Source of the DNA: a virus
Virus record (IMG/VR): IMGVR_UViG_3300034198_011393
Location: 1-21,942 of that record
DNA length: 21,942 nt
Reading direction: 5' to 3' (one strand)
Shown piece after piece: positions 1-4,013 of this stretch; position 1 is the first letter of the stretch; each line of letters starts with the position of its first letter. The position numbers and the translations under genes are program-made. Below the pieces are notes generated by a model. That model had not been told where the DNA came from. It saw only the letters and a program-made list of their open reading frames with translations, and did no database searches.

Positions 1-86
1 ACTGGCAATGCAATACTGAGTGCGTTTTCTTCCGGAAACGTCCCCAGACTAATTCCGGAAAGCTGTGTCCAGATGTTTAACGACAT
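1..86 (-). CDS. Virion structural protein, N-terminal 28 codons only (runs off the window)
   Basis: The minus-strand ATG at 86-84 opens a frame that stays open to the window edge and begins MSLNIWTQLSGISLGTF. A GAGAAA Shine-Dalgarno-like sequence (97-92) lies five bases upstream, and the start is 12 nt after the stop of the preceding gene, so the start is well supported. From memory, openings of the type 'S.NIWTQ.SG.S.GTF.E' are seen in large structural proteins of T4-like aquatic phages, placed just after a gene whose product ends in VLRWGEAQA, which is the arrangement here. Only 28 residues are visible, so no domain or function can be assigned. It is probably another tail or fibre component. 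Confidence 0.65.
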   Translation of the reverse strand, partial: MSLNIWTQLSGISLGTFPEENALSIALP

Positions 87-98
87 TTTATTTTCTCA

Positions 99-2939
99 TT
101 ACGCTTGCGCTTCGCCCCAACGTAGAACCAAGTTAGCCAACACTGGTGCACCTTGTGTTAGGTAAACGTTGATGAACAATACGTCTGGACCGTTAGGGAA
201 TGTACCACGTCCACCGATTGGTGTATTAGTCAATTCCTTAAATGGTGTCAAGTCTAATGAGTCCTTGTTAGCTGGTGAGCTAATGAACGAGAATACAGTT
301 TCACCTGGTATAGCATAAGTGTTACGACTAAATTGTGCAGTTGTTCCTAATATCTGGCCTACCAATAACGGATTGCTAATAACTACTTGGTTAACAGTTC
401 CAGATATTGCAGTACTAGATACAGTAGCTGACTGGTAACTTACCAAATATGTACCACCTGCATTAGCACCTGTACCAGTGTACACACTGTTTTGTGCATT
501 AGTTGCAGTAACTACAGTACTGGCTGCTAAGGTACCGCCAGACAATACTTGTCCAAGCACGACTGTACCGCTAGCATGTGTAGTGTCTGTCAACACCCAA
601 GGGGTAGCTGTCAATGTTCCGCTAGTTACACTTTGACTATTGTTCAACTGCCATGTACTTGTAGCACTTGTAGCATTACCAGTTAAGTTGGCTACAACAA
701 ATGTACCACCGCTAGATATTGTTGTTGTGCCGCCAGTAATTACATAACCAATACCAATACCAGTACCGCCGCTTGGTGCGCTAGTAACTGTTAGTACGTT
801 ACCTGCAATACTAGCAGTAAATGTACAAGCTGTACCAGCTGTTACACCACCAGTTGTGATACTACTTGTTGTAGTTGCTGTCGATACTACTTTAGTACCG
901 CCATAAACTGCCGCAGTGCTTGATGGAAGGAAAACGTCATCGCCTGCTTGAACACCAGTAAGACTATTGACTAATAGTGTAGTAGTACCAGCAGATAATC
1001 CCCCGTTACCTAATGTCGGGCTATTAGTTGCGGCATTAGCGTATGTTACACTAGTACCCGCGGCAATTTGACTAAAGCTAGGTTGCCCAGTTTGTAGTGC
1101 TGAACTATTTAAACTGTTCCAAGTGATACCAGTTGCTGGGTTTGAAGGATAGTTGCTTGGGTTTAGGATACCTTCAATAACCAATGCCGAGTTAGTATTA
1201 CTTGTACCGCCCGCTGTAATCTCAATAGTCTGTAATAACAATTGAGCGCGGTTAATTAAGTCGCGTACTCCTAAGTCTCCCACAATAGCGTTACTTACAC
1301 TTGGGGCTAAACGAATAGCAAACGCTGTAGTTTTCTTAGTTGAAATTTGTGTGTTAGTACTTTGATAGTTAAAGATGTAACCACGGTCTGTATCAAATCC
1401 ACCGTCTTGTAGGAAAGCAGACCCCCAGTGACTAATACTTGGAGTAGATGTTTGCCCAACTAGTATAATACCAGCACCTGCGGAATATCCAGCTGCCGCT
1501 GCCGCCGTAAAGTTGCGGGTAGAACCTGCTACAAAAACTGGCATAGTAACCGCACGAGCTACCCCTGTTAATGTACCTGCTGTAATAGTTTGATTATTAT
1601 TAAGGAATGTAGTAGCACCAGTAGTCTTACCAGTATAGCTAATAAGTTCGTTACCAATATAGCAGTATGCTGGATATGTTGCACTAGGTGTTGGGAAGTA
1701 TGAAACATCTGTTAGACTTAGTGTTGTATCTCCTGCTAGCGCGGCACTGCTTAATGTTGTGCGGGATCCTTCGTTAACTACTTCGTAACGAACAGGCTGG
1801 TTACCAGAACGCATATATGCTTCTGTGTTTAAATTATTACCACGTAAGCGATGTACTGTGATGAACTTGCCGTCTGTCCCGCGAATCATCCAATCAACGA
1901 ATCCTGCACCGTACCATGTCCATTGTAGGCCAATCATCTGCATCTTGTTAGTAACAATTTGGAATCCGCTAGGATTGTATGTGTTGTTGCTTCCATCGCA
2001 ACGATCTGTGTTCCATTGACTTTGCGGAATTAATCGATCGATAGTTTTAACCATCTTAACACCGCTTGCCGCAACTGATCCACGATAGTCTGGAGTCACA
2101 TAAATTTGTGTATCATTAACGACAGAACTTACAACGTGTGTCATGCCTTTAATAACTACACGATCTCCAGATGCTAGTTGACTAGTAAATCTGCTATTTA
2201 ATCCAGTAATGGAGTTTGAATCTGGTGTTACACTTACTGTACCGGCAATTTGGAATGTTGAACTACGGCGTCCAACAGACATTTGTTGACCGTCCCATTG
2301 CCAGAACATACCGTTTTGTTCATCAAATGTTCCTGCACGTACTGTTGATCCCCACCAGTTAATAATTTGCATTGTGCAAGGAGATCCGATGGAGCCTGTA
2401 GTAGAACCTAATGTAGAAATCACTGGTACTAATAAATTACGTTCATCTACAATAGCACCCACAGTCCAGTTTCCGCTATATCCAGAAGTTGATACACCGA
2501 ATACGTTAATAATAGCACCTGGTTGGCAACCGTGATCGGTATCATCTGTTGTAATTAAAATACTTGGTGTAAATGTTACAGTAGTGCCAGCTGTGATAGA
2601 ACTAGTAGTAGCTACATTGATTGTTAGTGTGGTTGAGCCACCACCTGAAATAATGTATGCACCTACGGGAATTCCTGCACCACTGATTAACATATTATTA
2701 AGAGCATTGGTTCCACTAGTAATAGTAATCGATGTTGACCCTGATGCAATAGTACCTGTAGTAGTAGTTGTGTAAGTTGTAGCAGATGTGCTAGTAGCAC
2801 TAATTGCACGAATGTCGTAGTTAGGAGCAAATAATGCACCTGTGTTATAGTTAATACTTTTACCAGATTGGTAACGAATATATTTCTTACTCATACGTAC
2901 GGCCATTGAGCCATGTGCTGGACCACCAGTGCCTAGCAT
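99..2939 (-). CDS. Virion structural protein, C-terminal part of an interrupted 1304-codon frame
   Basis: This open segment of 946 codons starts at the first ATG after an in-frame stop. That ATG is very likely not a true start. The same frame is open for 56 codons upstream (to 3107), the conserved-looking block YSHRPFDGGVMLGTGGPAHG runs straight across it, and no convincing Shine-Dalgarno sequence precedes it (GGCGGTGTC only). In order: the HRPFDGG...KKYIRYQSGK block (residues 1-50); a beta module (about 50-130); a GYSGNWTV module (about 150-175); a GDRVVIKGMTH module (about 245-300); the conserved-looking block KMQMIGLQWTWYGAGF...HRLRGNN (about 330-380); an IGNELISYTGKTTG module (about 430-470); two further beta modules (about 650-840); and the C-terminal block YAIPGETVFSFISSP to VLRWGEAQA. 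From memory these blocks match T4-like cyanophage and pelagiphage structural proteins. The C-terminus looks intact, which argues against long-standing decay. The exact virion position is unknown. Confidence 0.8.
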   Translation of the reverse strand: MLGTGGPAHGSMAVRMSKKYIRYQSGKSINYNTGALFAPNYDIRAISATSTSATTYTTTTTGTIASGSTSITITSGTNALNNMLISGAGIPVGAYIISGGGSTTLTINVATTSSITAGTTVTFTPSILITTDDTDHGCQPGAIINVFGVSTSGYSGNWTVGAIVDERNLLVPVISTLGSTTGSIGSPCTMQIINWWGSTVRAGTFDEQNGMFWQWDGQQMSVGRRSSTFQIAGTVSVTPDSNSITGLNSRFTSQLASGDRVVIKGMTHVVSSVVNDTQIYVTPDYRGSVAASGVKMVKTIDRLIPQSQWNTDRCDGSNNTYNPSGFQIVTNKMQMIGLQWTWYGAGFVDWMIRGTDGKFITVHRLRGNNLNTEAYMRSGNQPVRYEVVNEGSRTTLSSAALAGDTTLSLTDVSYFPTPSATYPAYCYIGNELISYTGKTTGATTFLNNNQTITAGTLTGVARAVTMPVFVAGSTRNFTAAAAAGYSAGAGIILVGQTSTPSISHWGSAFLQDGGFDTDRGYIFNYQSTNTQISTKKTTAFAIRLAPSVSNAIVGDLGVRDLINRAQLLLQTIEITAGGTSNTNSALVIEGILNPSNYPSNPATGITWNSLNSSALQTGQPSFSQIAAGTSVTYANAATNSPTLGNGGLSAGTTTLLVNSLTGVQAGDDVFLPSSTAAVYGGTKVVSTATTTSSITTGGVTAGTACTFTASIAGNVLTVTSAPSGGTGIGIGYVITGGTTTISSGGTFVVANLTGNATSATSTWQLNNSQSVTSGTLTATPWVLTDTTHASGTVVLGQVLSGGTLAASTVVTATNAQNSVYTGTGANAGGTYLVSYQSATVSSTAISGTVNQVVISNPLLVGQILGTTAQFSRNTYAIPGETVFSFISSPANKDSLDLTPFKELTNTPIGGRGTFPNGPDVLFINVYLTQGAPVLANLVLRWGEAQA

Positions 2940-3110
2940 GACACCGCCGTCAAACGGTCTATGAGAATAAAATGCATCTGGACGTGAATATACTGTTCCA
3001 GTAATGGTGCCACTAATTGTACCAGTAGCACGAGCGGTATATGTAAATGCAGTTGGTGAAGTTACAGATTCGACAAAGTATGGACCACTTGCTAGCGGCT
3101 CTGTAGTTTA
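2940..3110 (-). other. In-frame TAA plus 56-codon open link joining the 301-aa and 946-aa segments
   Basis: The codon at 3110-3108 is TAA. The same frame then stays open through 3107-2940 with no ATG until 2939. The translated link contains LASGPYFVESV, TAFTYTARATGTI and SRPDAFYSHRPFDGGV. The first two complete the beta module begun in the 301-aa segment ('NHGFVPGDTIL...GPYFV.....FTYTARA'), and the last begins the conserved-looking block that continues in the 946-aa segment. The coding signal is therefore continuous across the stop. Candidate explanations are a point mutation in this genome, a sequencing or assembly error, or real stop-codon readthrough. Confidence 0.8.
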
Positions 3111-4013
3111 TGTTAAAATTGTGTCACCCGGAACAAATCCGTGATTAGTAGCAAAAGTAACTGTAATAGTACTCGGACTTGAACCGTTACTGTAAGTAAA
3201 TGTTGGAGTTCCTACGCTAGCACCTGTATAGAATCCACCTTGTCTAACTTGGGTATATGTAGTACTTAAAACATCACCGTTGCTAACACCTACTTTAGCT
3301 TTAGCATAGTAGGTAAAACTAGTTGTGGTTGGCACAGAGTTAATAATAAATGAACCTTCTGCACGAGCAAATCCAGTAACTGTGTTTAAATAACCCTTAA
3401 CAGTGATTGGACTACCAACAGCCCAAGATGAGTTAAATGGAATAGAAACTGTAACAGTAATTAAACTTTCGCCCGCGCCACCTGATCCTGTACTTGCGTC
3501 TGTAGTCACCGTCACAACTGATTGATCAGTTCCAGGAACTTCATATACACTTGGATAACCTCGCAATAGGTCATAAGTTAACCATTTAGTTGGTTGTAGT
3601 CCATATTCAAAGTCAGCATCTAGCATCGATGTTGGGTTGCTAGTACGTGTACGCTCAAATGCATCTGTGCCAATTTCTGGCATGCGTACCAGTTGTTCTG
3701 GACGCTCGTATAAAATTTGTAATACATCACTGCTAAGAATACTGTTAGTAGTAATGCTAGCAATTGTGGTAGCGTTTAATTGGATAGTAGTTGTACCGTC
3801 TGTATTGTCTAATGTACTAATAAAATTCGTATCGTTTGCACGGGTGAATGTTACAGTAGTTCCTACAAATGTAGAATCTGCGAAATTGTAAAGTATTACG
3901 TTTTTAGTAGTATCTGTAATAATCAACAATTGTTGTAGGTCGATTTTTCCAGGAAGTTCGATTGTTCCCGCCGATGCGTTGAAAACGTAAGTTCTAAGCT
4001 GTGCTTTTGCCAT
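3108..4013 (-). CDS. Virion structural protein, N-terminal part of an interrupted 1304-codon frame
   Basis: The ATG at 4013-4011 has a strong GGAG (4023-4020) six bases upstream and follows the 442-aa gene by 22 nt. Residues 1-165 (AQLRTYVFNASAG, IDLQQLLIITDTTKNVILYNFAD, DADFEYGLQPTKW, YPSVYEVPG) form a conserved N-terminal domain that I recognise from memory in T4-like aquatic phage structural proteins. Residues 166-301 are a Thr/Ser/Val-rich beta region ending NHGFVPGDTILT, which stops in the middle of a module. The frame continues after the TAA without a shift, so the intended product is probably a 1304-codon protein. If termination is real, the truncated product would lack the rest of its last module. 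A late-promoter-like CATAAATA lies 19 nt upstream of the start. Confidence 0.82.
   Translation of the reverse strand: MAKAQLRTYVFNASAGTIELPGKIDLQQLLIITDTTKNVILYNFADSTFVGTTVTFTRANDTNFISTLDNTDGTTTIQLNATTIASITTNSILSSDVLQILYERPEQLVRMPEIGTDAFERTRTSNPTSMLDADFEYGLQPTKWLTYDLLRGYPSVYEVPGTDQSVVTVTTDASTGSGGAGESLITVTVSIPFNSSWAVGSPITVKGYLNTVTGFARAEGSFIINSVPTTTSFTYYAKAKVGVSNGDVLSTTYTQVRQGGFYTGASVGTPTFTYSNGSSPSTITVTFATNHGFVPGDTILT

Follow-up and report, generated by a model that had tools for sequence, protein, structure and literature searches.

Gene content of the window

The window, i.e. the whole stretch of DNA analyzed here, spans an entire linear virus record of IMG/VR (21,942 bases), and all of its large genes are located on the minus strand (Table 1). 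Translation of positions 4013 to 99 gave 1305 residues including stops, with stops at codons 302 and 1305 only. The TAA at codon 302 (3110-3108) is the sole internal stop of a frame of 1304 codons, and it divides this frame into two open reading frames (ORFs) of 301 and 946 aa, as the earlier note had described. The 56 codons between the TAA and the ATG at position 2939 were likewise open; they contained no ATG, GTG or TTG, the ATG at 2939 being the next usable start. In a random frame with the base composition of the window, about 6.1% of codons would be stops. Under this base-composition model, the probability of finding 1002 open codons past the TAA by chance is about 4 × 10−28, and the continuity of the frame is therefore real.

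Table 1. Features of the 21,942-nt window
Feature	Position	Strand	Basis or remark
Small gene	21861-21538	-	
5037-codon gene	21534-6421	-	
Two short tail-fiber-like genes	between 5037-codon gene and split gene	-	
442-aa fiber-like gene, Mtd_N domain	just before split gene	-	
N-terminal 301 codons, virion structural gene	3108-4013	-	phrog_5838 profile positions 1-275; GGAG ahead of start
19-codon hairpin stretch HGFVPGDTILT*TTEPLAS holding the TAA	3087-3143	-	at least 24 residues in almost every close relative
In-frame TAA, codon 302 of 1304-codon frame	3108-3110	-	translation
56 open codons (303-358), end of beta-module and HRPFDGGV block	2940-3107	-	conserved in relatives
Remainder of gene, callable as 946-aa ORF from an internal Met	99-2939	-	phrog_5838, best stretch at profile positions 381-758

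The 5037-codon gene was uninterrupted and is very large for a phage; repeated modules rich in Thr, Ser and Gly are abundant in it. Its N-terminal third showed a weak match to a short tail fiber (phrog_4527), and its C-terminal end showed weak matches to tail fiber families and families of unknown function. At positions 1-86 (minus strand), 12 bases past the end of the split gene, another gene begins (MSLNIWTQLSGISLGTFPEENALSIALPV...), which is cut by the end of the contig. In S-CAM1, the corresponding place is occupied by gp13.

Gene family and related phages

Both parts of the split gene matched the same family, phrog_5838, with E-values of 1.7 × 10−49 (301-aa part) and 2.3 × 10−170 (946-aa part), and the two matches were collinear along the profile. 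The predicted product is a large modular virion structural protein of the phrog_5838 family of T4-like phages. The earlier note had spoken of a tail protein; this label is uncertain, as the family is classed in PHROGs as head and packaging, virion structural protein.

The window is a phage fragment related to the T4-like cyanophages. Its nearest named relatives were Synechococcus T4-like phages of the Kyanoviridae, among them S-CAM1 and S-CAM3; their identity to the window was about 42-49% in the N-terminal part. In S-CAM1 (SXBG_00214) and S-CAM3 (gp146), the family member is annotated as a single long gene, located between a tail-fiber gene and gp13. The window gene resembles these members in the collinear profile match of its two halves and in the adjoining tail-fiber genes, but its codon 302 is a TAA and its hairpin is shorter. 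S-PM2 and S-H9-1 also possess the family gene as a single unit, although a shorter one.

Continuity of the gene in relatives

Relatives were collected by scanning IMG/VR with the 946-aa and the 301-aa parts (80 loci each). All fetched loci were searched by tblastn, for which an intact frame is unnecessary, and each C-terminal part was paired with the N-terminal part preceding it. This yielded 187 pairs (110 distinct). All 110 distinct pairs formed one uninterrupted frame, and neither a stop, nor a frameshift, nor a separate second gene was detected between the two parts in any of the 187. Together with the coverage of both halves by a single PHROG, this answers the question of the earlier note whether homologs continue across the stop, and it bears out its view that a genuine second gene is unlikely. 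An uninterrupted frame, which is not part of the profile match, was thus seen in all relatives and is lacking in the window gene. Judged from its sequence, the window gene is best filed as a putatively damaged or mis-assembled member of phrog_5838.

In the aligned relatives, the column of the TAA was occupied by varied sense codons specifying many different residues; in the closest relatives, a single transition would turn the sense codon at this place into TAA. Conservation past the stop was that of an intact family member. Over codons 303-358, the identity between the window and its relatives was 0.593, compared with 0.600 among the relatives; over codons 359-408, the respective values were 0.742 and 0.741. 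No sign of long decay past the TAA was seen, there being no excess divergence over codons 303-408. Therefore, the stop either arose recently, or does not exist in the actual phage, or is overcome in some way. Searches for near-identical contigs (allowing any codon at the TAA position, or using another exact anchor) gave no match, nor did a search with the short loop peptide or one against a plasmid collection.

The stretch from the N-terminal to the C-terminal part varied in length between 364 and 1076 codons among relatives L002-L156. A putative hot spot for module insertion follows approximately residue 267, immediately ahead of the TAA-bearing hairpin. Some phages carried more than one family member: at L082/L083 (G001:82694-93878, and G002), two members of 2305 and 1439 codons are adjacent to each other in one phage, and the contigs of L017/L074 and L018/L072 likewise contain two copies. 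A gene in L082 that appeared to consist of the C-terminal part only (profile match from 355) was discarded: the impression arose from the edge of the locus, and in the full record a continuous frame of 2305 codons includes an N-terminal part.

Position of the stop in the predicted structure

Codons 1-408 were modeled with AlphaFold, with relatives included and the stop read as one residue. The confidence of the model was moderate (mean 66.8, pTM 0.42). Codon 302 fell into a strand (298-303) of a predicted beta-domain spanning approximately residues 271-344 (pLDDT about 73-89), so that a product of 301 residues would break off midway through this domain. Comparison with the PDB gave chance-level matches only by sequence and none below 1 × 10−3 by fold; the best fold match, a riboflavin synthase with a TM of 0.18, was not used.

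The hairpin bearing the TAA comprised 19 residues in the window and was shorter by 5 to 12 residues than its counterparts in almost all close relatives (24-31 residues). A stretch of the type S..(D.G).NNH, present in the hairpin of nearly all close relatives, was missing. The window thus departs from its close relatives twice within one loop, by the TAA and by the short hairpin. Since the distant phages S-H9-1 and S-PM2 have loops of about 20 residues, shortness on its own does not have to indicate a lesion. The loop of the window could be naturally short, or it could stem from a local collapse of the assembly or from a small in-frame deletion.

Origin of the stop codon

Because the TAA is absent from all relatives, an ordinary nonsense mutation or a sequencing or assembly error is the most likely explanation, rather than a programmed device for making two proteins. 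We consider it very probable that the window contains a single large virion gene of the phrog_5838 family with one isolated premature TAA, which arose either by a recent nonsense substitution or by an error in the metagenome consensus. From the continuity in relatives and the lack of decay, we infer that the TAA serves no programmed function and either arose recently or does not exist in the phage. The earlier note had listed nonsense mutation and assembly error among its options; as a class these are supported, while the weights within the class are a matter of judgement, not of measurement. By that judgement, a substitution in the sampled phage has about an even chance and an error in the consensus a somewhat smaller one. 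If the sequence is taken at face value, translation would terminate within the beta-domain after residue 301 and would give a truncated, probably non-functional protein. Automatic gene calling would report two genes here and lose 56 conserved codons, even though the gene is single in every relative.

Three further groups of explanations were weighed. The first is a real pseudogene, i.e. a gene in the process of being lost, its loss being tolerated owing to another family copy in the same phage. The presence of two family copies in some related records would fit such a scenario, and the short hairpin beside the TAA could be a second lesion. Nevertheless, we regard it as very unlikely: approximately 1000 codons follow with no further stop or frameshift and with no excess divergence, and a second copy was not seen in the 21.9-kb fragment.

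Still harder to credit is a genuine split, in which a 301-aa N-terminal protein and a C-terminal protein re-initiated at the ATG at 2939 would be made as two chains. The earlier note had stated that this ATG has no Shine-Dalgarno sequence. Taken literally this does not hold, as a GGCGGTG upstream of it is predicted to pair with the anti-Shine-Dalgarno sequence about as well as other starts of the window do (−6.3 kcal/mol), which speaks for a split. However, only 2 nt separate the motif from the ATG, and its bases code for the last residues of the invariant DGGV, so it is not evidence for a start. A Met at residue 359 was found in only 8 of 42 relatives, so the ATG is not a conserved start. A restart at 2939 would moreover forgo the 56 conserved codons and cut through the beta-domain. 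None of the relatives is split, including a tandem paralog in two records that is continuous over 2305 codons.

Finally, the stop might be passed during translation. Programmed readthrough of the TAA, giving a short form of 301 aa and a long form, had been suggested in the earlier note by analogy to the coat protein and A1 of phage Q-beta. The minor coat protein A1 is made by readthrough of a UGA at a frequency of about 1/15 (PMC8067240). The window gene shares with this system an in-frame stop in a virion gene with open coding sequence beyond it, here conserved over the 1002 codons. In Q-beta, however, the stop is a leaky UGA and the shorter product serves as the functional major coat protein, whereas the TAA of the window lies in the middle of a domain, in a predicted beta strand, and was found in one contig only. 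The RNA offered no stimulating structure beyond chance in the 88 nt past the TAA (z = −0.26 relative to shuffled sequences), and Rfam gave no match. To our knowledge, TAA followed by A is not a known leaky context. With no stop in this region in any of the pairs checked, the suggestion is not supported, and we give it hardly any credence.

Reassignment of TAA by an alternative code or a suppressor tRNA is unlikely, because all seven large ORFs checked, and all complete ORFs of the window other than the split gene, end in TAA and no tRNA was found in the window, a genome fragment of 21.9 kb; in addition, the 5037 codons of the neighboring gene contain no in-frame TAA.

The Thr codons flanking the stop (ACA-TAA-ACT-ACA) would permit a Thr tRNA to hop over it in frame. 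That such a hop (ACA-TAA-ACT), or readthrough, occurs often enough to supply the phage with a virion protein in a short and a long form is very unlikely; if true, either would be a new case of recoding in a structural gene of a DNA phage. According to a review (PMC5009743), in-frame stop hops are not known to occur naturally. As in the bypassing of T4 gene 60, the phage is T4-like and the stop comes directly after an ACA that could serve as take-off codon, and ACT and ACA follow it. In contrast to gene 60, the window shows no inserted gap, the relatives have coding sequence and no stop at this place, and the frame is the same before and after the stop. In this Thr-rich protein, the pattern Thr-x-Thr occurs at 3.5% of positions and flanks of the same residue at 8.8%, against which the codon pattern around the TAA would be unremarkable.
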